This document shows, piece by piece, positions 2,998 through 60,328 of a stretch of 64,000 nucleotides of DNA; the stretch's first letter is position 1; every line of letters starts with the position of its first letter. The position numbers were made by a program, and so were the translations under genes. The notes beneath the pieces are model-generated. The model was given only the letters and a program-made list of their open reading frames with translations. It did not search any database and was not told the origin of the DNA. The DNA comes from Archangium gephyra (lineage in GTDB: Bacteria; Myxococcota; Myxococcia; Myxococcales; Myxococcaceae). The stretch covers positions 9,076,501-9,140,500 of the forward strand of contig NZ_CP011509.1 of assembly GCF_001027285.1 (NCBI RefSeq), given 5' to 3'.

Positions 2998-4026
2998 TCA
3001 GGAGTCGGACCCGGCGAGCCGCAAGCCCGCCTCCACCAGGTTGAGGGCGGCGCCCCGGCCGGCGTTGTCCACGGTGGCGAAGAGGGTGAGCCACTCGGGG
3101 GCCTGGGGGAAGGAGCGCAGGCGGCCCACATGGATGGTGGGGTCCGCAGTGACGAGGCTGGGCAGGGGGTAGACCTTCTCGGTGGGTGAATCCAGCACCT
3201 TGAGCGCGGGCGAGCCCTTGAGGGCGGCGCGCGCCTGGTCCACCGGGGCGGGCTTCTTCAGCCGCACGTGGAGGCTGAGCCCATGGCCGAAGAAGGTGGG
3301 CACCTGCACGGCGGTGCCGGCCACCACGGGCACCTCGCCCTTGCTGGCGAAGAGCCGGGCGCACTCCAGCGTCCAGCCGGCCTCCTCCTCCGTCCAGGGC
3401 GAGTTGGCCATGAAGGGGCCCACCTGGGGCACCAGGTTGAAGCCCACGCGGTGGGGGAAGACATGGGCCTCGGGCTCGCGGCCGGACAGCAGCGCGGACG
3501 TCTGCTGCTCCAGCTCCTTGAGGCCCCGCTGGCCCGAGGAGGACACGCCCATGAGGGCCGTCACCTGCACCTGGGCCACGCCAAAGGCCTGGCGCAGCGG
3601 CTCCACGAGGGTGGCCACGGCCGTCGTCACCGCCGAGGGCAGCGACACGATGCGGCCCTTGAAGGGGGTGCCCAGCGCCTCGGAGTTGAAGCCGGGGAGC
3701 ACCAGCGGGACGGTGCCATCGGCGCGGAAGGCGGAGCTCACGTCCACCACCCAGGCGCCCGCGGCCTGGGCCAGGGGGGCCAGCGTGCGCGAGGCGTCCG
3801 CCGGCGTGGCCAGCAGCACCAGGCCGATGCCCCGGAGCGTCTCGGCGGAGACGGGCTCCACCTCCAGCGTCTCCTCGCCATACGCCAGCTCCTCGCCCTC
3901 GGAGCGCTCCGAGGCCAGCACGCTGAGCTGCTCGGCGGGGAAGTCCCGCAGCAGGAGGGTGGAGAGCACCTCGGTGCCCACCACGCCCGTGGCGCCCACC
4001 ACGGCGATTCGCAGGTTCTCGTTCAT
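2998..4026 (-). CDS. Aspartate-semialdehyde dehydrogenase-like protein lacking the catalytic Cys (USG-1 type)
   Basis: 342 residues with an N-terminal Rossmann NADP site (GATGVVG, residues 11-17) and the ASADH C-terminal fold. In true ASADH the nucleophile sits in a PNC(S/T)T motif near residue 130. Here the same place reads LPSAVTTAV (residues 129-137), so Ser-Ala replaces the Cys. The substrate-binding Arg before the catalytic His is also changed (AVQVPTFFGHG, Gln for Arg) while His 248 remains. Such Cys-less paralogues are called USG-1 proteins. It probably does not make aspartate semialdehyde; a normal asd would be expected elsewhere. It stands alone, divergent from the sensor/chemoreceptor pair. 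Confidence 0.8.
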   Translation of the reverse strand: MNENLRIAVVGATGVVGTEVLSTLLLRDFPAEQLSVLASERSEGEELAYGEETLEVEPVSAETLRGIGLVLLATPADASRTLAPLAQAAGAWVVDVSSAFRADGTVPLVLPGFNSEALGTPFKGRIVSLPSAVTTAVATLVEPLRQAFGVAQVQVTALMGVSSSGQRGLKELEQQTSALLSGREPEAHVFPHRVGFNLVPQVGPFMANSPWTEEEAGWTLECARLFASKGEVPVVAGTAVQVPTFFGHGLSLHVRLKKPAPVDQARAALKGSPALKVLDSPTEKVYPLPSLVTADPTIHVGRLRSFPQAPEWLTLFATVDNAGRGAALNLVEAGLRLAGSDS

Positions 4027-4076
4027 GGCGGTCCCTTTACCCCAGCCCCCCGTCTGGCGCGCGGGCTTCCGTGGGC

Positions 4077-4125
4077 GACGTCTCCCATTGGGGTAGGACA
4101 AAATACGACATCACTGAGAGACGTC
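4077..4125. promoter_or_regulatory. Inverted repeat in divergent intergenic region
   Basis: GACGTCTC at 4077-4084 is mirrored by GAGACGTC at 4118-4125, with an AT-richer loop of 33 bases. It lies between the divergent ASADH-like gene and the 4243 gene. It could be an operator or a stem-loop in the ASADH-like mRNA leader; which one is not decidable by eye. Confidence 0.35.
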
Positions 4126-4242
4126 TACCACTGAAGCGCCCGCCTGGAGGCACTCCGGCCGTGTCCGCATGGAGGGGGAGCAGGGGCCCGGGCCCGGCAC
4201 GGGTCCCCGAGCCCCCTTCCGGTAGACTGGAGGGACATGTCG

Positions 4243-4782
4243 ATGTGGACCCTCGTCTCGTTGTTGCTGCTGGCGAACGTGCCGCCGGACGGCGCGGCGC
4301 AATTGAAGAAGGTGGACGGGCTGATGCCCGAGCTGCGGCGCATGGCCACGGACCCGGCGGTGGTGCGCGAGGTGAAGCGGCAGAACGCGCGGCGCGTATC
4401 CCTGGACAGCATCCGGCAGTGGGACGAGGAGTGGCGGGCGACCGCGGCGCTCACCCCCCTCAAGCGTCAGCTGCTGGGCAACCCGTGCGCGCGCATGCTC
4501 GAGCGTCACCGGGACCGGATGGGCCGGGTGGTGGCCGAGGCCTTCGTCATGGACAACCAGGGCGCGCTGGTGGGCGCCACGCGGCGCACGTCCGATTACT
4601 GGCAGGGCGATGAGCCCAAGTGGCGTGAGTCCTTCAAGGGAGGCCGGGGCGGGGAGCTGCGCGAGAAACCCTTCTTCGATGACTCCTCGCAGTCCTATGT
4701 CGTCCAGGTCTCCCTGCCGGTGAAGGATGGCGCCCGCGTCATCGGCGCCCTCACCGTGTCCATCTCCCTGCTCGAGCTCTGA
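4243..4782 (+). CDS. Small periplasmic PDC/Cache-like sensor protein
   Basis: About 179 residues: a short hydrophobic signal (MWTLVSLLLLANVPPDGAA) and a soluble region rich in features of PDC/Cache sensor folds (VMDNQGALVGATRRTSDYWQGDEPKW, then PVKDGARVIGALTVSISL). No transmitter domain follows, so it is probably a free periplasmic sensor or binding protein. The ATG at 4243 is preferred to the one at 4237 because GGAGGG at 4229-4234 then has normal spacing. The chemoreceptor starts only 5 bp after its stop, so the two are co-transcribed, and I infer that this protein feeds signals to that receptor. Confidence 0.7.
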   Translation: MWTLVSLLLLANVPPDGAAQLKKVDGLMPELRRMATDPAVVREVKRQNARRVSLDSIRQWDEEWRATAALTPLKRQLLGNPCARMLERHRDRMGRVVAEAFVMDNQGALVGATRRTSDYWQGDEPKWRESFKGGRGGELREKPFFDDSSQSYVVQVSLPVKDGARVIGALTVSISLLEL

Positions 4783-48966: not shown

Positions 48967-49751
48967 GGCCGCGCCTCCAAGGCCAGACCGGGCCCCCCTG
49001 CCCCATTGACGCGCTGGTCGAGCCGCGCCGAGGAGCCATGGCACTGCTGGCAGTTCTGCCGCTCGGGGTGCGAGGTGCGCAGCCCGAGGAGGCCGCGCGG
49101 GCCGTGGCAGCTCGCGCAATCGTCCCGCATGAGCGTCGGGTGGGGCATGGTCGGCGGAGCCCCTGGCCACGCCCGCTCGCCCTTTCCAGCCGAGGCCAAA
49201 CCGACGAAGCGATTGCCCGGACCCTCCTTGTACTGAGCCAACGGACGAGGCGACTCCCCCACCACGTGGCACTGCGTGCAGCTCTGGTACGGCGGATGGC
49301 TGATCTTCGGAGCCACCCGGTTGCCCAGCTTCATGCCCTCGCCATGGCAGGCCAGACAGCCGGGGACTTCGCGCTGGTCGATCTCATGCGGAATGGTCGG
49401 CGGCGCCCCGTCATAGGCCCGGTGGTCCTGTCGTTGCGCCACGGCCCGTGCGCGCTGCTCGGCGGTAGCCACCGGCAGGGGCTTCACCGGGAACGGCTCT
49501 TCCGCCAGCGCGTCGATGGCTCCCTCGTACATGCGCGCATTGGCCCCCCGCCGCTGCTCGCGCAGCTCGCTGTAGCTCGGAGCACGCTCGGCCCGTTGCG
49601 CATGGGGATCCGAGGCAACCGGCCTCTCCGGCATCTCCGGCGCGCGGAGGCCGGCGAAGTAACCGGTGGCCGCGAGCGCCACCGCCACGGCGGCGCCCAC
49701 CTGAAGCCAGCGCGCGCCGAGCCCGCTGCCCTGTCCACCCTCGGGGCTCAT
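48963..49751 (-). CDS. napB: NapB-like cytochrome c with duplicated di-haem module (four haems)
   Basis: 262 residues. N-terminal membrane anchor or uncleaved signal at ~16-34. NapB normally has two CxxCH haem sites. Here are four: CLACH (132-136), CTQCH (158-162), CASCH (212-216) and CQQCH (234-238). The second pair repeats the layout of the first, including PP(T)IPH / PPTMPH lead-ins and a SHP before the second haem. It therefore looks like an internal duplication of the NapB fold. Function: electron transfer to NapA in the periplasm. Starts overlapping napA (ATGA). Confidence 0.85.
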   Translation of the reverse strand: MSPEGGQGSGLGARWLQVGAAVAVALAATGYFAGLRAPEMPERPVASDPHAQRAERAPSYSELREQRRGANARMYEGAIDALAEEPFPVKPLPVATAEQRARAVAQRQDHRAYDGAPPTIPHEIDQREVPGCLACHGEGMKLGNRVAPKISHPPYQSCTQCHVVGESPRPLAQYKEGPGNRFVGLASAGKGERAWPGAPPTMPHPTLMRDDCASCHGPRGLLGLRTSHPERQNCQQCHGSSARLDQRVNGAGGPGLALEARP

Positions 49752-52168
49752 CCCTGCTTCTCCGCGACGAGCTCACGCCGTCGCACACGTGCCGCGCACT
49801 TCTTGTAATCGGGCTGCTTGGAGAACGGGTCATGCTCGTCGAGGGTGAGCCAGTTGATGAGCAGCCGCTCGTCGAAGAATGGGACGAAGAGCGAGCCCTC
49901 CGGCGGCTCACCCCGGCCGCCAATCCACACGGGCAGGTCCAACTTCCCGCGCCGCGTCTCCACCGTCACCTGGTCCCCGTTGCCCACTCCGAGCCGCCGC
50001 GCATCCGCGCGGTTCATCTCCACATAGGCCTGGGGCATGGCGCGCTGGAGCTGAGGAATCCGCATGGTCATCGTGCCCGAGTGCCAGTGCTCGATGACAC
50101 GGCCGGTGCACAGCCAGAAGGGGAACTCGGCGTCGGGGGACTCGGGAGGAGGCTCGTAGGGGCTGAACCAGATCTGCGCCCGGTCATCGTGCGTGGTCGA
50201 GTGGTAGAACTGGATGTCGCGCCCCTTCTTCACATAGGGGTCATCGAAGCCAGCGAAGCGGAAGCGCGTCTCGCGCCAGCTGCCGTCCGGCTGCTGCACC
50301 ACGGGCCAGCGCAGGCCGCGCGCCTTCACGTACTCCTGATAGGGCGCCAGGTCCTTGTGCTTGATGCGGGTCGTCTTCCGGTACTCCTCGAAGAGGTGCT
50401 CATCCACGTTGACGTCGTAGTAGTGGGCGAAGTCCCAGAGGGGCACGGGCTTGCCGTCCTTGCCCTTCACCTCGAAGAGGAAGCGGCCGTCCTTGTCCTT
50501 CATCCCCTCGAAGCCAAGCTCGAGGAGCCGGTGGGCCACGGCGATGAGTTGCCAGGCGTCATCACGGGCCTGACCGGGAGGCTTCACCATCTTGAACCAC
50601 TGCTGGGTGCGGCGCTCGGAGTTGCCCACCATGCCGTTCTTCTCCACCCACATGGCCGAGGGAAGGATGAGGTCCGCGATGCGCGCGGTGGCCGAGGGAT
50701 AGACATCCGAGACGATGAGGAACTTGTCGGCGAGCTTGCGGCTGGGGTCCACCAGCTTGTGGGTGTTGGGCAGCGTCTGGGCGGGGTTGGTGACCTGGAC
50801 CCAGATGGTGTGGATGTCCCCGCCCTGCTCGGTGGGCGTGGAGAAGCGCTTCCACATCTCCAGGGTGTGGTAGCCGGGCTTGTCGTGGAGGCGGCCCTTG
50901 GGGACGTTCCAGATCTCCTCCATCTGGGCGCGGTGCTCGGCCTTGGCCACCACGCGTCCGCCGGGGAGTGCATGGGCGAGCGTGCCCACCTCGCGCACGG
51001 TGCCGCACGCGGAGGGCTGGCCGGTGAGACTGGTGGGCGCGTCTCCTGGCTTGCCGAAGTGCCCGCTGAGCAGGTGGAGCCCGTGGACCAGGTTGTTGAT
51101 GGCCGTGCCCCGGGTGTGCTGGTTCATCCCCATGCACCACAGGCTGGTGATGCGCACGTCGCGCCGGCCGAACAGGTCCGCGAGCATCCGCAGGTCCTTC
51201 GCCGGAACGCCCGAGAGCTCCTCCACCTTCTCCGGGGTGTAGGGCTCGAGCAGCTCGCGGTACTCCTCGAAGGTGATGGCCTTGCCCTCGAGCGCCGCGG
51301 GCTCGCTGGGGGCGCGGAAGGCACAGTTGGCCTCGACGAAGGCCTTGTCGTAGGTGCCGTTCTCCACCAGCAGGTGGGCGATGCCACACGCGATGGCCAG
51401 GTCCGTGTTCGGCTTGAAGCGCAGCGAGTGGTCGCAGAAACCGCTGGTGCGTGTCTTGCGCGTGCCGATGTCGATGAGCGTCACCTTCTCCCCGCGCGAG
51501 CGGCGGTCGATGACACGCGAGAAGAGGACCGGGTGCATCTCGGCGGGGTTGTTGCCCCACATGATGAGCACGTCGCAGGCATCGAGGTCGTCGTAGCAAC
51601 CGGCGGGCTCGTCCACGCCGTAGGTGGCGAGGAAGCCCGTCACCGCCGAGGCCATGCACAGCCGCGCGTTGGCATCCAGCTGGTTGGAGCCCAGGCCGCC
51701 CTTGACGAACTTCGAGGCGGCATAGCCCTCGGGGATGGTCCACTGGCCGCTGCCGTAGAGGCCGAAGCCCTTGGGGTCCTTCAGCACACGGCGGGCGACG
51801 ATGTCGATCGCCTCCTCCCAGGAGATGGGCACGTGCGTGTCGCCCTTCTTGAGGAGCGGCGTGGTGAGCCGGTCGCTCCCATAGAGGGCGAGCCCCACGT
51901 GGTAGCCCTTCACGCACAGCAGGCCCTTGTTCACCGGCGCCTGCTGATCCCCCGCGATGGCCACCACCTTGCCGTTCTGCACGCCCACCTGCACGTGACA
52001 GCCGGTGCCGCAAAAACGGCAGGGGGCCTTGTTCCACTGCACGCCCTGTCCAGCGGGAGCAGCGGCTGGCGGAGTTCCGGCAGCCTTGTCCTGGCCATAC
52101 GCGAGGCGGCTCGCGGCCAGCGTCGCCGCCGTCATGGCCGTGCCCTTGAGGAAGTCCCGGCGATCCAT
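49748..52168 (-). CDS. napA: Periplasmic nitrate reductase catalytic subunit NapA
   Basis: 806 residues. A Tat signal (RRDFLKGT) is followed by the [4Fe-4S] ligands Cys50, Cys53, Cys57 and Cys85 (PCRFCGTGC; LLCVKG), and the molybdenum ligand Cys171 (ANARLCMASAV). The Mo-bisMGD domains run to the end. It reduces nitrate to nitrite in the periplasm with electrons from NapB. Length fits the family (~800-830). It follows napD by 2 bp and overlaps napB. NapC, the usual quinol-oxidising cytochrome, is absent from the operon; the divergent operon may replace it. Confidence 0.92.
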   Translation of the reverse strand: MDRRDFLKGTAMTAATLAASRLAYGQDKAAGTPPAAAPAGQGVQWNKAPCRFCGTGCHVQVGVQNGKVVAIAGDQQAPVNKGLLCVKGYHVGLALYGSDRLTTPLLKKGDTHVPISWEEAIDIVARRVLKDPKGFGLYGSGQWTIPEGYAASKFVKGGLGSNQLDANARLCMASAVTGFLATYGVDEPAGCYDDLDACDVLIMWGNNPAEMHPVLFSRVIDRRSRGEKVTLIDIGTRKTRTSGFCDHSLRFKPNTDLAIACGIAHLLVENGTYDKAFVEANCAFRAPSEPAALEGKAITFEEYRELLEPYTPEKVEELSGVPAKDLRMLADLFGRRDVRITSLWCMGMNQHTRGTAINNLVHGLHLLSGHFGKPGDAPTSLTGQPSACGTVREVGTLAHALPGGRVVAKAEHRAQMEEIWNVPKGRLHDKPGYHTLEMWKRFSTPTEQGGDIHTIWVQVTNPAQTLPNTHKLVDPSRKLADKFLIVSDVYPSATARIADLILPSAMWVEKNGMVGNSERRTQQWFKMVKPPGQARDDAWQLIAVAHRLLELGFEGMKDKDGRFLFEVKGKDGKPVPLWDFAHYYDVNVDEHLFEEYRKTTRIKHKDLAPYQEYVKARGLRWPVVQQPDGSWRETRFRFAGFDDPYVKKGRDIQFYHSTTHDDRAQIWFSPYEPPPESPDAEFPFWLCTGRVIEHWHSGTMTMRIPQLQRAMPQAYVEMNRADARRLGVGNGDQVTVETRRGKLDLPVWIGGRGEPPEGSLFVPFFDERLLINWLTLDEHDPFSKQPDYKKCAARVRRRELVAEKQG

Positions 52169-52170
52169 GG

Positions 52171-52416
52171 TCAGCGCTCCTCCTCGGAGAAATCCACCAT
52201 CACGACGTCCACGAAGCTCACTCCCGGGAGGTCCCTCAAGGACTCGGCGAGCGCCTCCCCTTCGGGAAGGCTGCCGGTCTCCGTCACCACCGGCAGCCAG
52301 CGCTCCTCCAGGGGGGGCCCCAGGGTGATGCGCGGATCGCGAGCGACTTCACGAAGCACGCTCGCCCTCAGTTCGGGAGAAGCGTCGAGGGTGAGTACCA
52401 GGCTGCTGATGGGCAT
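52171..52416 (-). CDS. napD: NapD, chaperone for NapA maturation
   Basis: 81 residues starting MPISSLVLTLDASPELRASV, a ferredoxin-like fold typical of NapD, which binds the Tat signal of NapA and holds back export until the cofactor is in. GGAG just upstream supports the ATG at 52416. First gene of the minus-strand nap operon, 2 bp before napA. Confidence 0.85.
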   Translation of the reverse strand: MPISSLVLTLDASPELRASVLREVARDPRITLGPPLEERWLPVVTETGSLPEGEALAESLRDLPGVSFVDVVMVDFSEEER

Positions 52417-52598
52417 ACAGGCTCCGTCCATTCGGGCAGGACCCCCAGGAGCAAGAGGCGGACCACCCGGGCGCGCGAGGGGCGACGGCGGAGGCGACGC
52501 AAAGCCTGCGCCCAAATCTGTTTTTCTGATGCAGGTTTTTCGCGCTCGAGCGGGCAGCTCGGCACCTCTTCACGGCGGGCGCACAGGGAAGAGCCGTG

Positions 52599-52615
52599 CT
52601 GGCACGGACACTGCT
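52599..52615 (+). promoter_or_regulatory. Candidate sigma-54 promoter of the cytochrome c/ferredoxin/NrfD operon
   Basis: CTGGCACGGACACTGCT matches TGGCACG-N4-YTGCW almost perfectly, the best such site in the window. The predicted start near 52625 argues against the GTG at 52630 as initiator and for the ATG at 52654. No FNR-type box was seen in this divergent region. Confidence 0.5.
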
Positions 52616-52653
52616 TTGCGCAAGCCTCCGTGGAGAACCCTCTCGACAGATGG

Positions 52654-53250
52654 ATGCGCCCGGCCCTGGCCGCCGTGCTGCTCGCGTTCGGCGGCTGCGG
52701 GAAGGATCAGCCCGCTCGCTTCCAACCGCCCCCGGGGGCGCCCACCGGCAAGGAGACGCTCCACCAGCCGGCGAAGCTCACCTCCGTGGAGAGCGGCCAG
52801 ACGGACGCACTGGGCCGGCCGCTTCGCGTGTCGTGCGAGAGCTGCCACTCGCTGCGTGAGACGAAGCCCATGCCCTCGCGGCCCGAGGAGCTGAAGGAGT
52901 TCCACCAGGGCCTCCAGTTCCGCCATGGCGAGCTCGCCTGCACCTCCTGCCACCAGGCCAACCAGCCGCGCACGCTGCACCTGGCCACGGGCGAGCCGCT
53001 GCCGATGCCGGAGGCGGTGACGCTGTGCGCGCAGTGCCACGGGCCGCAGTACCGCGACTTCAAGGCGGGGGCGCACGGCGGCATGACGGGCTACTGGGAT
53101 CTGTCGAGGGGAGACCGCACGCGGAACCACTGCGTGAGCTGCCACGATCCGCACTCGCCGAAATACGCGGGCGGGCATCCGGTGATGCCTCCGCGCCACC
53201 CGTCCACCCAGGGCGAGCCGGACAACAAGGAGGCCCGAGGCCATGAGTGA
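52654..53250 (+). CDS. Tetra-haem cytochrome c lipoprotein
   Basis: About 198 residues from ATG 52654 (MRPALAAVLLAFGGC, a tidy lipoprotein signal with the lipobox Cys); a GTG at 52630 is also in frame. Four haem-binding sites are visible: CESCH, CTSCH, CAQCH and CVSCH, each with spare His residues for bis-His ligation. It resembles the DsrJ/NrfB-type small multihaem cytochromes. Its end overlaps the ferredoxin gene by 8 bases. As part of a cytochrome/ferredoxin/NrfD operon divergent from nap, it probably carries electrons to the periplasmic NapAB. Confidence 0.82.
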   Translation: MRPALAAVLLAFGGCGKDQPARFQPPPGAPTGKETLHQPAKLTSVESGQTDALGRPLRVSCESCHSLRETKPMPSRPEELKEFHQGLQFRHGELACTSCHQANQPRTLHLATGEPLPMPEAVTLCAQCHGPQYRDFKAGAHGGMTGYWDLSRGDRTRNHCVSCHDPHSPKYAGGHPVMPPRHPSTQGEPDNKEARGHE

Positions 53251-54148
53251 CATCCTCTCCCGCCGCACCGTGATGAAGGGCGCAGGGGCCACGCTCGGGG
53301 CCGCGGCCTTCGCGCACGCGATGGCTCCGCTCACCGAGTGGACGCAGGACCTGAGCGTCGATGAATTCCTCCAGAAGCACTACAAGGAGCTGACGCGCGA
53401 CGAGATGGCGCGAATCCTGGTCCACCTGAAGGCCGAGGCGAAAAAGACATACGGCCGGGACGTGGACATCCAGGACCTGCCGCCGCAGGAGGGCGTGTCG
53501 TTCGGCTACGCGCTGAACCTGAGCGTGTGCATCGGCTGCCGCCGGTGCGCCGAGGCGTGCCACCAGGAGAACAACCACGACCGGAGCACGGGCAACTCGT
53601 ACATCCGGGTGCTGGAGATGCAGCAGGGCAGCCTGGATCTGGAGCACGGCAACGCGAACTACGACCACCCGGTGCCGGCCGAGGGGAAGTACTACCTGCC
53701 AGTGCAGTGCCACCAGTGCGACAACGCGCCGTGCGTGAAGGTGTGCCCGGTGCAGGCGACGTGGAAGGAGTCGGACGGCATCGTGGTGGTGGACTACAAC
53801 TGGTGCATCGGCTGCCGGTACTGCGAGGCGGCGTGCCCCTACCACGCGCGGCGCTTCAACTGGACGAAGCCGGAGATTCCGCCCGAGGAGCTCAACCCGG
53901 ACCAGGGCTACCTCTCCAACCGCGTGCGTCCGCAGGGCGTGGTGGAGAAATGCACCTTCTGCCTGCACCGCACGCGGGCGGGCCGGCTGCCGGCGTGCCT
54001 GGAGGCGTGCCCCACGGGGGCGCGGGTGTTCGGCAACCTGTTGGACCCGAAGAGCCCCATCCGCTGGGTGCTCGAGAACAAACGCGTCTTCGTGCTCAAG
54101 GAAGAGCTCGGGACGCGGCCCCGCTTCTTCTACTTCTTCGACAAGTGA
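53243..54148 (+). CDS. NrfC/DsrO-like 4Fe-4S ferredoxin subunit
   Basis: 301 residues. A Tat signal (LSRRTVMKGAGA) means the protein works in the periplasm. Four cluster motifs follow: CIGCRRCAEACH, CHQCDNAPCVKVCP, CIGCRYCEAACPY and CTFCLHRT with CLEACP. This is the usual arrangement of NrfC/PsrB/DsrO proteins that sit between an NrfD-type membrane quinol oxidase and a terminal acceptor. It overlaps the cytochrome gene and ends 3 bp before nrfD. The third component is a cytochrome, as in DsrJOP. Confidence 0.88.
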   Translation: MSDILSRRTVMKGAGATLGAAAFAHAMAPLTEWTQDLSVDEFLQKHYKELTRDEMARILVHLKAEAKKTYGRDVDIQDLPPQEGVSFGYALNLSVCIGCRRCAEACHQENNHDRSTGNSYIRVLEMQQGSLDLEHGNANYDHPVPAEGKYYLPVQCHQCDNAPCVKVCPVQATWKESDGIVVVDYNWCIGCRYCEAACPYHARRFNWTKPEIPPEELNPDQGYLSNRVRPQGVVEKCTFCLHRTRAGRLPACLEACPTGARVFGNLLDPKSPIRWVLENKRVFVLKEELGTRPRFFYFFDK

Positions 54149-54151
54149 GCC

Positions 54152-55420
54152 ATGGCCGCCACCCGACACCTGCTCGACTACCCGCGGTTCCTGGGCCGCC
54201 TCCTGTGGATGAGCACGGACGGGAGCTGGCGCTTCTACACGTGGATGACGGTGCTCACCGCGATTGCCCTGGTGGGTGCCAATGCCTGGGCGCACCAGCT
54301 GGCCGGGGGCATGGCCCTCACGGGGATGAGTGACCACGTCTCCTGGGGCCTGTACATCGCCAACTTCACCTTCGGGGTGGGCCTGGCGGCGGGCGCGGTG
54401 ATGATGGTCATCCCCGCGTACCTGTACCACGACCACGAGATGCACGACGTCACGCTGATCGGCGAGCTCCTGGCGATCGCGGCGATCTCCATCTGTCTGC
54501 TGTTCATCGTGGTGGACCTGGGGCGTCCGGACCGCTTCTGGCACATCATGCCAGGGATTGGCCGGTTCAACTGGCCGGTGTCCATGCTCTCCTGGGACGT
54601 GGTGGTGCTCAATGGCTATCTGCTCATCAACCTGCACATCTGCGGCTATCTCCTCTACATGCGGTTCCTGGGCCGCAAGCCGCGCAAGCAGTGGTACCTG
54701 CCGTTCGTCTTCCTCTCCATCTTCTGGGCCATCAGCATCCACAGCGTGACGGCGTTCCTCTACAGCGGGCTCGGAGGGAGGCCCTTCTGGAACTCGGCGC
54801 TGCTGGCGCCACGGTTCATCGCGTCCGCGTTCATCACGGGCCCGGCGTTCGTCATCGTGCTGTTGCAGGTCATCCGCCGCTTCACGGGGCTGCCCATCGG
54901 CGAGGGCCCGCTGCGCACGCTGACGTCGGTGATGCGGGTGACGGTGCTGCTCAACCTGTTCATGCTGGGCTCGGAGCTGTTCACCGCCTTCTACACGGGC
55001 GGCTCGCACGCCACGGCGGTGCGCTACCTGTTCTTCGGCTCGCACGGGCACCATGCGCTGGTGCCGTGGATCTGGACGGCGGTGGCGCTCAACATCGCCT
55101 CGGCGGTGCTGGTGCACCTGCCGGCCACGCGGCGGCACGTGGGGTTGCTCAACCTGGCGTGCGCGCTGGCCTTCGCGGGTGTGTGGATTGAAAAGGGCAT
55201 GGGCCTCATCATCCCCGGCTTCGTCCCGAGCACCCTGCACGAGGTGGTGGAGTACGTACCCACCCTTACGGAGTGGAAGATCACCGCCGGCATCTGGGCC
55301 GTCGGGCTGATGGTACTGACGGTGGCGGTGAAGGTGGCACTGCCAGTGCTGAGCGGCCAGCTCGCGGCCTCGCACGGGCATGGAAGTGAGGAGACCACGG
55401 AGGCACGGCGAGCTGCCTGA
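54152..55420 (+). CDS. nrfD: NrfD/DsrP-like membrane quinol-oxidising subunit
   Basis: 422 residues with about ten membrane helices. It starts MAATRHLLDYPRFLGRLLWM and has the NrfD-family GLYIANFTFGVGLAAGAVMM, then IVVDLGRPDRFWHIM. Ten helices point to the DsrP-like long branch rather than eight-helix NrfD. It exchanges electrons between membrane quinol and the ferredoxin. The final 25 residues (from LSGQLAASHGHG) overlap a 34-bp repeat also found at 60295-60328, where the frame would read LSGQPAASHAASHPTRESGN. This suggests that its original 3' end was displaced by an insertion. Confidence 0.87.
   Translation: MAATRHLLDYPRFLGRLLWMSTDGSWRFYTWMTVLTAIALVGANAWAHQLAGGMALTGMSDHVSWGLYIANFTFGVGLAAGAVMMVIPAYLYHDHEMHDVTLIGELLAIAAISICLLFIVVDLGRPDRFWHIMPGIGRFNWPVSMLSWDVVVLNGYLLINLHICGYLLYMRFLGRKPRKQWYLPFVFLSIFWAISIHSVTAFLYSGLGGRPFWNSALLAPRFIASAFITGPAFVIVLLQVIRRFTGLPIGEGPLRTLTSVMRVTVLLNLFMLGSELFTAFYTGGSHATAVRYLFFGSHGHHALVPWIWTAVALNIASAVLVHLPATRRHVGLLNLACALAFAGVWIEKGMGLIIPGFVPSTLHEVVEYVPTLTEWKITAGIWAVGLMVLTVAVKVALPVLSGQLAASHGHGSEETTEARRAA
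55343..55376 (+). repeat. 34-bp direct repeat, left copy (end of nrfD)
   Basis: CTGAGCGGCCAG then YCGCGGCCTCGCACG, preceded by CCAG. It matches 60295-60328 at 31 of 34 positions. It lies in the nrfD 3' coding end and marks the left border of the luxI-containing segment. Confidence 0.75.
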
Positions 55421-55530
55421 GCCCACACGGGTTCGAAGCTCGAAGCTGAACTCTTCTGATGTGCTGGCTTATCCTCCGGAAGCTCACCTTCCGTCCTCTC
55501 CAGTGGGGAGGCACTTTCAAATCCGGGGTT

Positions 55531-56163
55531 ATGTTCCAGGTTCACATCATTCATGCCGGAAACCGGCATCTCTACGAAGACACCATCGAGCAGCACTTTC
55601 GCATTCGTCATGACATTTGTGTCGGCGAGATGCGGTGGATGGAGCTGGAACGGCCTGATGGCCGCGATGTGGATCAGTTCGATACGGACAAAGCCGTCTA
55701 CCTGTTGGGGCTGGAGCCAGAACGAGGGGTTGTAGCTGGTTCACGGTTGTTGCCAACGCTGGAGCCGCACCTGCTCGGCAACGTCTTCCCAGAACTCGCG
55801 AACATCCGAGGGGTACCACACGCACCCGATATTTTCGAATGGACACGATTCTTCGTCCATCCGGCGAGACGCGAATCCAACCGGCCCAGCAAGGCCGCTG
55901 GAATCATCCAATGCGCCATCGTCGAATTTTGTTTGTCGCAGAATATCCGGAAGATCAGCGGAGTATGTGAAGCCCACTGGCTCCCTCGTCTCCAGGCCCT
56001 GGGCTGGAATCCATGCCTCCTGGGAGAGCCGATGCGCAAGGACAGCATGACAATCGTCGGGCTTTCCACGGACATGACCACGGAAGCCCTCGAGAGAACA
56101 CGCTCGGCCTACGGAATCATTGGAAGCGTCATTGCACCCGTATCCATTCCCTTCAACCGGTAG
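55531..56163 (+). CDS. LuxI-type acyl-homoserine-lactone synthase
   Basis: 210 residues from MFQVHIIHAG. All invariant LuxI-family positions can be placed: FRIRHD (Arg24/26), Trp36, DQFD (Asp48, Asp51), GSRLLPT (Arg72) and FEWTRFFV (Glu103, Arg106), followed by FVHPARR. These enzymes make acyl-homoserine lactones from SAM and acyl-ACP or acyl-CoA. No luxR-type receptor is in the window, so it would be an orphan. LuxI is rare in myxobacteria, though orphan examples have been described in Archangium/Vitiosangium relatives (from memory). Base composition is less GC-rich than its neighbours, pointing to transfer. Confidence 0.85.
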   Translation: MFQVHIIHAGNRHLYEDTIEQHFRIRHDICVGEMRWMELERPDGRDVDQFDTDKAVYLLGLEPERGVVAGSRLLPTLEPHLLGNVFPELANIRGVPHAPDIFEWTRFFVHPARRESNRPSKAAGIIQCAIVEFCLSQNIRKISGVCEAHWLPRLQALGWNPCLLGEPMRKDSMTIVGLSTDMTTEALERTRSAYGIIGSVIAPVSIPFNR

Positions 56164-56319: not shown

Positions 56320-57447
56320 GTGCGGATTGTCGAGAATCGTTTCACGGACGCAGGCCCGGTAGAATCCACCATCCAGAACGTCGCTCACCTCGAATTATGG
56401 GTAGGGAACGCTCGACAGGCAGCGCACTACTACTGCAGGGGATTTGGGTTTTCCCTGGTGGCGTACGCCGGACCTGAGACAGGAGTGCGTGACAGGGCGT
56501 CCTATGTGGTGCGGCAGGGACGGTGTTGCCTCGTCCTCACCGCCGCGCTTCTCCCGGACTCCTGCATCGCGGAGCACGTCCACCTCCACGGTGATGGCAT
56601 TCGAGACGTCGCCTTCATGGTCACGGACGCCGCGAAAGCCTTCCGGCACGCCGTCGAACGCGGCGCTGTTCCCGTCGCCGAGCCGTGGGAGGAAACGGAC
56701 GCTCACGGAACCCTACGAAAGGCCAGCATTGCCTCGTATGGCGGCTTGATTCACACCTTCGTCGAGCACCGCGACTACAAGGGCTGCTTTGCTCCGCGAT
56801 TCCTGGCGGCAGTTCCAGCCGATGACCCTCTGCTACCCGTCGGGCTGTTCGCCATCGATCATGTCGTGGGCAATGTCGAGCGGGGCCAGCTGGAATTCTG
56901 GACCCGTTACTATGAGGAGACCCTCGGACTCGCCAGGCGCCAGCATTTCGATGACGAGACCATTTCCACTCCCCTCACCGCCCTCACGAACACGGTGCTG
57001 TCCTCGACGGACGAGCAGGTGAAATTGCTGCTCAATGAGCCAGGCCGTGGAACGAAGCGCTCGCAGATCGAGGAGTACCTGCTCTTCAACGGAGGTCCTG
57101 GTGTGCAGCACGTTGCGTTCGCAACCCGTGACATCCGGAGGTCCGTGCGGGCTCTCCGCGCACGCGGAATTGAGTTCATCCACGTCCCAGCCACCTACCA
57201 TGAGGCGCTGCGTCCGCCGCTCTCCGACAACAGCCTCGACCTCGAGGAGTTCCAGGAACTCGGCATCCTGGCCGATCGCGATGCTCACGGCCACCTTCTC
57301 CAGATCTTCACCCGCCTGCCCCAGGACCGGCCCACCCTCTTCTTCGAACTCATCGAACGTCGTGGATGCAACGGGTTTGGAGCGGGGAACGTGAGGGCGT
57401 TGTTCGCCGCGTTCGAACGAGAACAAGCTCAGCGCGGCAATCTCTAG
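56320..57447 (+). CDS. 4-hydroxyphenylpyruvate dioxygenase-like enzyme
   Basis: 375 residues, GTG start. Two vicinal-oxygen-chelate domains; the iron ligands are His181 (AIDHVVGN), His264 (VQHVAFAT) and Glu343 (LFFELIERR). The C-terminal GCNGFGAGNVRALFAAFERE is the HPPD signature helix. It would turn 4-hydroxyphenylpyruvate into homogentisate. The related hydroxymandelate synthase has the same ligands and cannot be excluded by eye. No homogentisate dioxygenase (hmgA) follows, so the product is probably passed to the FAD monooxygenase, hinting at secondary metabolism or pigment rather than tyrosine breakdown. Confidence 0.85.
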   Translation: MRIVENRFTDAGPVESTIQNVAHLELWVGNARQAAHYYCRGFGFSLVAYAGPETGVRDRASYVVRQGRCCLVLTAALLPDSCIAEHVHLHGDGIRDVAFMVTDAAKAFRHAVERGAVPVAEPWEETDAHGTLRKASIASYGGLIHTFVEHRDYKGCFAPRFLAAVPADDPLLPVGLFAIDHVVGNVERGQLEFWTRYYEETLGLARRQHFDDETISTPLTALTNTVLSSTDEQVKLLLNEPGRGTKRSQIEEYLLFNGGPGVQHVAFATRDIRRSVRALRARGIEFIHVPATYHEALRPPLSDNSLDLEEFQELGILADRDAHGHLLQIFTRLPQDRPTLFFELIERRGCNGFGAGNVRALFAAFEREQAQRGNL

Positions 57448-57464
57448 CGCCCACGACAACGCCT

Positions 57465-59120
57465 ATGACGAGGCCGCATACCGGGCATCCCGTCGTTATC
57501 GTCGGCGCCGGGCCAGTCGGGCTCACCCTCGCGTCATTCCTGGCCAGGTTCGCGGTTCCTACCATGCTGCTCGAAGCCGGGGCACCTCATCGGCGCATCG
57601 GCTCCAGAGCCATCTTCGTACAACGTGACGTGCTCGAGATTCTCGAACGGATCGGCTGTGGCCGTGCGCTCACGGACGGCGCCTTGTCGATCCAGCGAGG
57701 ACATACCTACTTCCAGGAGCGCCTGCTCTATACGACCGGGTTCTCCCGTGATGAGAACGACGTCTTCCCTCCCTTCGTCAGCGTCCCTCAGACACGGACC
57801 GAAGAAGTGTTGCTCGCGCAGCTCCAGCGACATGGAGGGGTCGACATCCGCTGGGGCCACGAGGTGCAACCGGGTCTCATCGAAGACGAGGAGGGCGTCA
57901 CCCTCACGGTGTCCGGCCCCTCCGGCGTCGAGACCCTGCGTGCCGCCTATGTCGTGGGCTGTGACGGACCTGGCTCCGTCATCCGCAAATCGATGGGAGT
58001 GGGCTACGAGGGACAGAGCCATGGCGACAAGTTCTTGATCGTCGATCTGGAGCTCCACGGGGAACTGATGTCGCTCGAGCGGCACTTCCACTTCGATCCG
58101 AGCTTCAACCCCGGGCGCCAGGTGCTCCTCATTCCCCAACCGGGTGGGGTGTGGCGCATCGACTTCCAAGTACCGTTCGAGACAGAGCTCGCCTCGGAGA
58201 GGGCCTCGGGAAAGCTCGACGAGCGCATTCAAAAGGTGCTGGGAGACCGTCGCTATGAGCTCCGATGGGTCTCGCTCTATCAGTTCCACCAGCTCGTGGC
58301 CCGGAACTTCCAGCGGGGTCGAGTGTTCATCGCAGGCGACGCCGCCCACCTGATGAGCCCATTCGGTGCGAGGGGCATGAATTCAGGCATCGCCGACGCC
58401 GAGAACCTGGCCTGGAAGCTGTGGCGGGTACTCTCTGGACAGGCCTCCGCGGCGCTGCTTGGCACCTACGAACACGAGAGGCGGGCAGCCGCGCTCGAGA
58501 ACATCCGAATCACCACCCGCACGATGCGTTTCATGGTTCCCCCGACGCCCGAAGAGCGGGTGGAGCGCGACCAGATCTTGCGCCGCAGCGTCGAAAGCCC
58601 CGAGGCGCGAGCCCTCGTGGACTCGGGCAAGCTCTACACGCCGTTCACGTACGAGGACTCCCCCATCGTCCTGCGTGCCGGGGCGAGCGCGGCTGTCACA
58701 TCACGGCTCGGGGCTATTGCGCCAGACGCTCCCTGCCGTGTGCACGGGAATGACAGCGTTACCCGGCTTCGCGACCTCGTAGGTAATGGATTCGTGGGGC
58801 TGTATCTGGCCCGAGACGCGGAGGAGGCACGTTTCTGGGTGAGAACGGTGCGCCAGGAGGCCGCGGGCACAGCAATCTTTTTCGCCGTCGTCGTGGACAC
58901 GAACATCGAAGCAAGGGATCTCGAAGGGTGCGCAGTCATCGACACCGCCGGCCGCATTCGAGAGGCATACGGCCCCCGGGGAACACTCTCCATCTTGCGC
59001 CCGGATGGACACATCGCCGCTGTGCGCTCCGAGGCAAGGCCAGAAAATCTCCGCGCGTTGGTCGACTTCGCCTCGGGTGCTGACCTTGGAACTCCTACAC
59101 GAACGAAGGAAGGCATTTGA
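57465..59120 (+). CDS. FAD-dependent aromatic-ring monooxygenase (PheA/TfdB type)
   Basis: 551 residues. FAD-binding GxGxxG (VIVGAGPVGLTLASFLARF, residues ~10-28), the DG motif (VVGCDGPGSVIRK) and the second FAD motif RVFIAGDAAHLMSPFGARGM match group A flavin hydroxylases. The C-terminal ~170 residues have the thioredoxin-like fold of phenol/polyketide hydroxylases (LVGNGFVGLYLARD), without catalytic Cys. It hydroxylates a phenolic ring with NAD(P)H and oxygen. Starts 17 bp after the dioxygenase; the TGA overlaps the next ATG. Substrate could be homogentisate or a related phenol. It is the obvious partner of the dioxygenase. Confidence 0.87.
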   Translation: MTRPHTGHPVVIVGAGPVGLTLASFLARFAVPTMLLEAGAPHRRIGSRAIFVQRDVLEILERIGCGRALTDGALSIQRGHTYFQERLLYTTGFSRDENDVFPPFVSVPQTRTEEVLLAQLQRHGGVDIRWGHEVQPGLIEDEEGVTLTVSGPSGVETLRAAYVVGCDGPGSVIRKSMGVGYEGQSHGDKFLIVDLELHGELMSLERHFHFDPSFNPGRQVLLIPQPGGVWRIDFQVPFETELASERASGKLDERIQKVLGDRRYELRWVSLYQFHQLVARNFQRGRVFIAGDAAHLMSPFGARGMNSGIADAENLAWKLWRVLSGQASAALLGTYEHERRAAALENIRITTRTMRFMVPPTPEERVERDQILRRSVESPEARALVDSGKLYTPFTYEDSPIVLRAGASAAVTSRLGAIAPDAPCRVHGNDSVTRLRDLVGNGFVGLYLARDAEEARFWVRTVRQEAAGTAIFFAVVVDTNIEARDLEGCAVIDTAGRIREAYGPRGTLSILRPDGHIAAVRSEARPENLRALVDFASGADLGTPTRTKEGI

Positions 59121-60304
59121 TGCGAACGGACCGCAAGGGCATCGCGGCGTTGACACTCGTGTTGCAGATGGCGGGCTGCGCCGACGTGGACGAGGGAGGA
59201 GAATCCTTCAGGGAGGAGCGCTTCGAAACAAGTGAGACAGCGGTGCGCGACACGCCTGGGCGCGCGCTGTTCAACGACGCGACGTTCGGCGGCAATGGAC
59301 GGACATGCCGCACGTGTCACTCTTCAGGCACTGGCACCGTCTCGCCCGAGGAGGCACGGCTGCGCTTCTCTCGCAATCCGAACGACCCTCTCTTCCTCCA
59401 TGATGGGCTCGACGATGGCGTGAGGGGTGTCACGCGGATGCTGGAGCGCGCGACGTTCCGGATCCAACTGCCACTGCCACCCAATGTCGTACTGGCACAC
59501 TCGCCAGCGCGCAGCGTCGTGGTGCTCCGCGCCAGCCTGAGTACCAACAACGTCGCGCTCGAGAACACGCTGATGAACGACGGGCGCGAAGCCACACTCG
59601 AGACACAGGCTCTCGGAGCCATCCACGGACATGCGCAGAACACCCTCGCACCCACGCCCGGACAGCTCGAGGCCATCGCCGAATTCGAGCGCTCCCGCGA
59701 GTTCTTCACCTCGGCCCGGTTGTGGGCGTACGCCAACGGAGGTGCCGAACCCGGGCTTCCGGTGGGCCGCACCCAGGCGGAGCGCCGCGGCCGGCGCTTC
59801 TTCGAGAACATCCCTTTCGCACCGAACGCGGCCGGGACACACATGAGCCTCGACGGCATCTGTGCGCACTGTCATTCAGGCCCGATGCTCAACACGGCGA
59901 ACGGACACGGGCCCTTCCCGGTGAACACTCGCTTCACGACAGCGGGAGTCTCGGAGCTCAATCGGTCCGGCAATACGGTCCGCACGTTCGTGTTCACCCT
60001 CGCCGACGGCACGTCCACCGAGGTGACCTCGCCCGATCCTGGCCGCGCACTGATCACCGGAAAGGCCGCCGACGCCAACCTGTTCAAGACGCCTTCGCTC
60101 TGGGGCATCAATCGAACAGCGCCGTACTTCCACGACCACTCGGCACGCGACTTCGACGAGTTGCTCGACCACTACCAGGCATTCTTCGACACCGCCCCGA
60201 CACCGGTGCCCGTCGCGCATTTCACCCACCAGGATCGCGAAGACCTCAAGGCCTTCCTCCGCCTGCTCGATCAGCCTCCATCGGCCCATTCAGACCAGCC
60301 CTGA
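59120..60304 (+). CDS. Di-haem cytochrome c peroxidase/MauG-like lipoprotein
   Basis: 394 residues; ATG at 59120 overlaps the monooxygenase stop. The signal ends LVLQMAGCADVDE with a lipobox Cys. Two haem sites: CRTCHSS (N-terminal) and CAHCHSGPM (C-terminal), the two-domain layout of bacterial cytochrome c peroxidase/MauG. A conserved LFKTPSLWGINRTAPYFHDH lies near the end. It may reduce peroxide or oxidise a small molecule outside the membrane. The unusual pairing with HPPD, a flavin hydroxylase and LuxI suggests it finishes oxidation of an aromatic product. The stop lies in the 34-bp repeat (60302-60304). Confidence 0.85.
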   Translation: MRTDRKGIAALTLVLQMAGCADVDEGGESFREERFETSETAVRDTPGRALFNDATFGGNGRTCRTCHSSGTGTVSPEEARLRFSRNPNDPLFLHDGLDDGVRGVTRMLERATFRIQLPLPPNVVLAHSPARSVVVLRASLSTNNVALENTLMNDGREATLETQALGAIHGHAQNTLAPTPGQLEAIAEFERSREFFTSARLWAYANGGAEPGLPVGRTQAERRGRRFFENIPFAPNAAGTHMSLDGICAHCHSGPMLNTANGHGPFPVNTRFTTAGVSELNRSGNTVRTFVFTLADGTSTEVTSPDPGRALITGKAADANLFKTPSLWGINRTAPYFHDHSARDFDELLDHYQAFFDTAPTPVPVAHFTHQDREDLKAFLRLLDQPPSAHSDQP

Positions 60305-60328
60305 GCGGCCAGCCCGCGGCCTCGCACG
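60295..60328 (+). repeat. 34-bp direct repeat, right copy
   Basis: Right partner of 55343-55376 (31 of 34 identical). Reading on in the nrfD frame gives LSGQPAASHAASHPTRESGN and a stop at 60382-60384. This looks like the displaced ancestral nrfD C-terminus. Confidence 0.75.

Follow-up and report, generated by a model that had tools for sequence, protein, structure and literature searches.

Can a predatory bacterium emit a signal that it is unable to hear itself? This published question is raised by agpI, a gene for a LuxI-type synthase of acyl-homoserine lactones (AHLs), which lies at 55531..56163 on the forward strand of a 64-kb stretch of the Archangium gephyra genome (the window). The evidence described below indicates that agpI is, in all likelihood, a horizontally acquired AHL synthase gene that lacks a LuxR partner and sits in a strain-specific block of about 5 kb behind an NrfD-family gene. 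The formation of AHLs from S-adenosylmethionine (SAM) and an acyl thioester is established chemistry of the LuxI family, and AgpI would join an acyl thioester, probably of coenzyme A (CoA), to the amino group of SAM and lactonise the product to an AHL. A solo AHL synthase in A. gephyra is already known, and the details given here refine that picture without adding a new kind of system.

Identity of the synthase gene

The agpI frame runs from an ATG at 55531 to a TAG that ends at 56163 and encodes 210 amino acids, with a GC content of 57.0% overall and of 66.8% at third codon positions (GC3). The list of open reading frames (ORFs) opens the same frame at 55459 (234 amino acids), and alignments with homologues begin at the methionine at 55531. 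The product matches PF00765 with 63.8 bits (cut-off 24; E 2e-17), and a whole-genome profile search found it to be the sole match above the cut-off in the 12,489,432-bp, single-contig genome. The closest solved structures are 6wns (E 2.9e-54), 5w8c/5w8a and the 4-coumaroyl-homoserine lactone (HSL) synthase 6wn0, with LasI (1ro5) a much weaker match (E 3.6e-7). The PF00765 and 6wns matches are above chance, and a preliminary description that had placed a LuxI-type synthase here was exact in its coordinates.

The gene is very probably the published agpI of strain DSM 2261 (WP_047862734.1), which was likewise reported to encode 210 amino acids at 57% GC and to be a sole synthase without a receptor (Albataineh 2021, PMC7862692). 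This equation is made through length, GC content and other published properties. According to the accessible text of that paper, AgpI expressed in E. coli yields C8-AHL, C9-AHL and a probable unsaturated C8-AHL, the C9-AHL having been confirmed with standards (PMC7862692); the expression experiment that the preliminary description proposed had therefore already been run, with AHL as its outcome. The same text reports no detectable AHL on axenic plates of A. gephyra, no AHL induction upon addition of deuterated C4- or C6-AHL, no LuxR, AinR or LuxN homologue in the organism and no obvious island around agpI (PMC7862692). A near relative is VitI of Vitiosangium sp. GDMCC 1.1324, with a reported identity of 68% and the same three AHLs in E. 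coli; it differs from AgpI in that a LuxR homologue was reported in its genome and its gene neighbourhood is another one (PMC7862692). VitI was not met among the 96 family genomes searched here. A 2026 preprint, in the part accessible, describes two Archangium metagenome-assembled genomes carrying synthases more than 90% identical to AgpI (PMC12919014).

All seven columns that are invariant in a 17-row alignment (R26, W36, D48, D51, R72, E103 and R106) are kept in AgpI. Position 30, encoded by a TGT codon at 55618..55620 on the forward strand, is a cysteine in AgpI; the remaining 23 of 24 aligned synthases have Phe or Tyr there. The earlier claim that all key LuxI residues are present is nearly, but not fully, true because of this one deviation. 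In the accessible literature, all eight conserved residues of the reference domain are stated to be present in AgpI (PMC7862692), and Arg24, Phe28 and Trp34 are listed as highly conserved in the AHL synthase family (PeerJ, PMC11674143). By our reading of the alignment, Cys30 would correspond to Phe28 of that list. A relative of AgpI on a Methylobacterium aquaticum plasmid (L081, match at 4001-4627) has a cysteine at the otherwise invariant Trp column and a glycine in place of the nearby, usual Glu; it is perhaps a decaying synthase.

A strain-specific block bracketed by a repeat

The NrfD-family gene in front of agpI (54152..55420, forward strand; PF03916 141.7 bits; NCBIfam DsrP 429.3 against a cut-off of 350) is native and is the last gene common to all five congeners in front of the strain-specific block. 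DNA similarity to the congeners spans this gene in each of the five and ends at 55374-55376, although in some of them the tail of the NrfD protein can be aligned by eye as far as the stop at 55420. Within the 3′ end of the gene lies one member (the left copy, 55343..55376) of a pair of 34-bp direct repeats; the right copy (60295..60328; both on the forward strand) follows 4952 bp downstream, with 31 of 34 positions identical and an E value of 4.6e-5 in the genome. The right copy also matches the nrfD ends of three congeners (G003, G004 and G006), extending to 60331 for G003 and G006; among the matches listed there is none to the nrfD ends of G002 and G005. We read the repeat as a likely trace of insertion or exchange at the 3′ end of nrfD.

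Four genes, all on the forward strand, lie between the two copies. Behind agpI comes a 4-hydroxyphenylpyruvate dioxygenase (4-HPPD)-family gene (56320..57447; TIGR01263 391.1 bits, cut-off 277), whose start may be further in. It is followed by a gene for a flavin adenine dinucleotide (FAD)-dependent monooxygenase (57465..59120; PF01494 226 bits; NF006002 487.9, cut-off 416), with a start chosen by hand inside the listed ORF 57366-59120, and by a MauG/di-haem cytochrome c peroxidase-like gene with two CxxCH motifs (59120..60304; PF03150 30.7 bits, cut-off 25.6), for which every NCBIfam match is under its cut-off. The GC3 values of the four genes (66.8, 73.9, 75.9 and 79.7%, in order) contrast with 92.9% in the NrfD-family gene, and the two genes past the right repeat stand at 87.5 and 84.1%. 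PF00765 is absent from all five congeners. Among the matches listed for the 96 family genomes, with A. gephyra itself excluded, the best relatives are about 41-43% identical for the 4-HPPD-family protein, 49% for the MauG-like protein and, for the monooxygenase, 37% over most of its length or 40% over part. The plasmid relatives among the matches listed reach at most 48.6% (dioxygenase) and 42.8% (monooxygenase) and come from mixed taxa. The block of about 5 kb looks foreign.

Two points weigh against so simple an outline. The nrfD end of congener G004 is followed by about a dozen bases and then by sequence equal to the window from 61458 onward, so that this strain difference reaches 61457, past the right repeat, and measures about 6.1 kb. 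Moreover, the four block genes may not all have been acquired together, possibly arriving in several steps. The other four congeners have no match of more than 150 bp to the window in the 13 kb compared behind the NrfD-family gene. In that region, G003 and G006 have nearly 12 of the 13 kb in common; G004 has 5 kb in common with G003, 5 kb with G006 and 1.5 kb with G002. Not all congeners thus differ from one another, but the genes behind the NrfD-family gene change between Archangium genomes, and the site is therefore variable across the genus.

On the other side of the block, 49748-55420 holds a molybdopterin oxidoreductase gene on the reverse strand and multihaem-cytochrome-like, 4Fe-4S and NrfD-family genes on the forward strand. 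Together these look like a respiratory complex common to the congeners.

Plasmid relatives and the missing partner

When 72,556 plasmid records were searched with AgpI (tblastn), 614 gave matches, none of which reached 60% identity, and gene order was read in 17 of these (L076-L092), 14 of them annotated (L081, L083 and L089 are not). In 11 of the 17 (L076-L080, L082, L084, L086 and L090-L092) the synthase gene is immediately preceded, on the same strand, by a luxR or autoinducer-binding gene; such a gene is adjacent but otherwise arranged in L085 and L087, and L088 shows no luxR within its short stretch. In the five nearest relatives (L076-L080), the two genes are 66-74 bp apart if the start equivalent to that of AgpI is taken; the annotated start of L080 gives 81 bp. 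The single locus found in GTDB (L029) likewise encodes a LuxR protein upstream, with matches to PF03472 (101.6 bits) and GerE. The nearest plasmid relatives of agpI are thus alphaproteobacterial luxR-luxI pairs. Two of the 17 plasmids, of Sphingobium (L086) and Sphingomonas (L091), carry a phytanoyl-CoA dioxygenase-family gene behind luxI, an arrangement also mentioned in the accessible part of PMC4288048.

The corresponding place in A. gephyra is a gap of 110 bp (55421..55530, forward strand) that separates the stop of nrfD from the start of agpI, with no luxR remnant seen and no clear lux-box palindrome. A by-eye reading of 55376-55531 in six frames was unlike the LuxR C-termini of six relatives. 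The best ungapped 20-bp palindrome in the gap has 6 of 10 pairs, a score that 85% of 500 shuffles of single bases also reach. Of 12 comparison sequences, six pass this test (3% of shuffles or fewer reaching the score) and the other six fail it, and the missing lux box is weak evidence for that reason. A search of the window for the consensus lux box gave 17 matches with two mismatches or fewer, against 42 expected, the nearest to agpI at 52066; a consensus lux box close to agpI is accordingly rejected.

At E<=1, a genome-wide search for the autoinducer-binding domain (PF03472) produced 12 matches, all of them outside the window. The best, with 24.3 bits (cut-off 23; 21.4 bits in a single-protein scan), sits in the GAF region of a histidine kinase and is rejected as a hidden LuxR, and the remaining 11 are all under the cut-off. 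This search therefore found no LuxR-type receptor, linked to agpI or elsewhere in the genome. The preliminary description had noted the lack of luxR in the window and had advised a search of the full genome; its picture of an orphan LuxI in a myxobacterium holds at both scales and was already in print (PMC7862692). With no LuxR-type receptor in the cell, the AgpI product very probably does not drive classical autoinduction.

Likely AHL synthases in the Myxococcota

That AHL signalling is exceptional in this group, as had also been proposed, is borne out by a survey of 195 Myxococcota genomes, only three of which have a PF00765 match above the cut-off: A. gephyra (G000), G035 and G166. The G166 protein (L094:1432-2145) was rejected as an AHL synthase: it scores 71.6 bits as FeeM, against 43.6 for PF00765, and is better described as an N-acyl amino acid synthase; its gene is located behind two others. 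Two likely AHL synthases are left. The survey found PF03472 at E<=0.001 in 20 genomes and above the cut-off in 14, the GAF match of A. gephyra counted. By reading of the table, the domain is near full length in six (G046, G057, G058, G118, G138 and G164), none of which is among the PF00765 genomes, although zero overlap is the chance expectation because the counts are so small. According to the accessible text of an earlier survey, nearly all of its Myxococcus and Corallococcus genomes encode one or more LuxR homologues (PMC7694542), a frequency in tension with 14 of 195, and the definitions used probably differ.

The LuxI-type gene of G035, a member of another genus of the same family, lies at L044:9620-10276 (PF00765 108.2 bits) and is unrelated to agpI, its product grouping with TofI (95/90). 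A perfect 20-bp palindrome, reached by none of 500 shuffles, ends 85 bp before its start, and G035 has no PF03472 match at E<=0.001. It is likely to be a second solo synthase in the family. In the published accounts accessible, LuxI solos of Ruegeria sp. KLH11 and Sphingobium KK2/IP26 (PMC4288048) and of Actinomycetota (PMC13136126) resemble agpI in being without an adjacent luxR. The Ruegeria and Sphingobium strains differ in having other luxI/luxR pairs (PMC4288048), while no LuxR was found genome-wide in A. gephyra.

Use of the signal or silent acquisition

Action of the AgpI product on prey, which the preliminary description suggested, had already been proposed as prey interference in the accessible texts (PMC7862692, PMC7694542). 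The chances seem evenly balanced that AgpI, if used, acts on other bacteria or through a further kind of receptor, the case otherwise being one of silent acquisition. The latter alternative, in which agpI is a recent, intact passenger that A. gephyra leaves unused, is somewhat short of an even prospect. It would account for the silence of axenic plates and of cultures given labelled C4- or C6-AHL, and the authors of the 2021 paper kept it open (PMC7862692). The want of a receptor, the low GC3 of the strain-specific block and the unusual Cys30 also favour such a passenger. On the other side, the frame is intact with its seven invariant residues, the enzyme is active in E. coli (PMC7862692), and synthases more than 90% identical occur in the two further Archangium assemblies (PMC12919014).

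The acyl donor of AgpI

A tree of 24 synthase rows, four PDB rows being partial stretches, places AgpI in a cluster (support 89/93) with six others: 6wns, Paracoccus saliphilus, Mesorhizobium sp. B1-1-8, M. japonicum pMLb, Aminobacter and Bosea. The 6wns synthase is one that we take to be MesI. This cluster is nested in a 13-row group (94/95) with RpaI and BjaI, a group that does not include TofI, the G035 protein or two TraI-like rows. AgpI is 44-46% identical to 6wns, BjaI and RpaI and 25-26% identical to TofI and the two TraI-like rows. The 6wns and M. japonicum pMLb synthases are thus like AgpI in identity (44-46%) and branch, although the latter has luxR directly upstream and agpI does not. 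BjaI (5w8c) and RpaI (6wn0), 44% identical each, share the larger group; they make isovaleryl- and coumaroyl-HSL, as opposed to the C8- and C9-AHL reported for AgpI in E. coli (PMC7862692).

Acyl-CoA-type synthases have been described, in the accessible text, as a single clade, in which a surface helix lacks conserved basic residues (PMC4234381). The proposed helix for binding acyl carrier protein (ACP) has three Lys or Arg residues in AgpI, 6wns and RpaI, one in BjaI, four in TofI and five to six in the TraI-like rows. In this region AgpI weakly resembles the CoA type, the basic-residue count being a weak separator. Going by the tree and the identities, the acyl donor of AgpI is probably acyl-CoA and not acyl-ACP. 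Since AgpI groups with the acyl-CoA-type BjaI and RpaI, its products in E. coli may differ from the native signal; recombinant E. coli may indeed yield the wrong signal for CoA-type synthases, as the accessible part of PMC10470506 has it. In the accessible main text of the 2021 paper, the names BjaI and RpaI are absent and CoA is named once, as a possibility (PMC7862692).

Several observations pull the other way. Support for the 13-row group lies just below the level that the program marks with a star, and the seven-row group is likewise unstarred; the helix count splits the two types weakly, with only four basic residues in TofI; and the C8- and C9-AHL made in E. coli would fit an ACP-type enzyme too (PMC7862692). 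An ordinary acyl-ACP-type synthase, drawing C8- and C9-AHL from fatty-acid synthesis and with its E. coli signal the native one, would be consistent with the C9-AHL confirmed by standards and with the poor discrimination of the helix test. Such an enzyme is nevertheless unlikely, given the tree position with BjaI and RpaI, identities of 44-46% and the record of E. coli misleading for CoA-type synthases (PMC10470506).

The dioxygenase gene next to agpI was considered as a supplier of aryl-CoA. Homogentisate, the expected product of 4-HPPD, is not a CoA thioester, and such neighbours occur in none of the 14 annotated plasmid records within the stretch shown; the idea is unsupported for both reasons.

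An acyl-CoA donor would leave room for a fuller but doubtful scenario, in which AgpI natively makes a branched, aryl or unsaturated acyl-HSL from a myxobacterial CoA thioester (isovaleryl-CoA, for instance), missed by expression in E. coli and made only in contact with other bacteria, with the predator deaf to it by any known receptor. That the signal instead addresses a stable bacterial companion is improbable: the preprint, in its accessible part, describes Archangium-Microvirga consortia with LuxI homologues in both members and, from 73.24% identity to a Microvirga protein, suggests that the gene was transferred from that genus, but the homologues of the two consortium members are only 43.55% and 45.76% identical, and the present partners therefore do not hold one common recent gene (PMC12919014).

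Significance for Archangium

To the question of whether a predator emits a signal inaudible to itself, the present analysis adds practical points. The acyl-CoA placement would indicate which substrates to try next with AgpI and which type of assay to use. The repeat-bracketed block gives the places where the acquired DNA probably begins and ends, limits that the 2021 paper, in its accessible text, did not find (PMC7862692). The five congeners without the agpI block would provide natural comparison strains.
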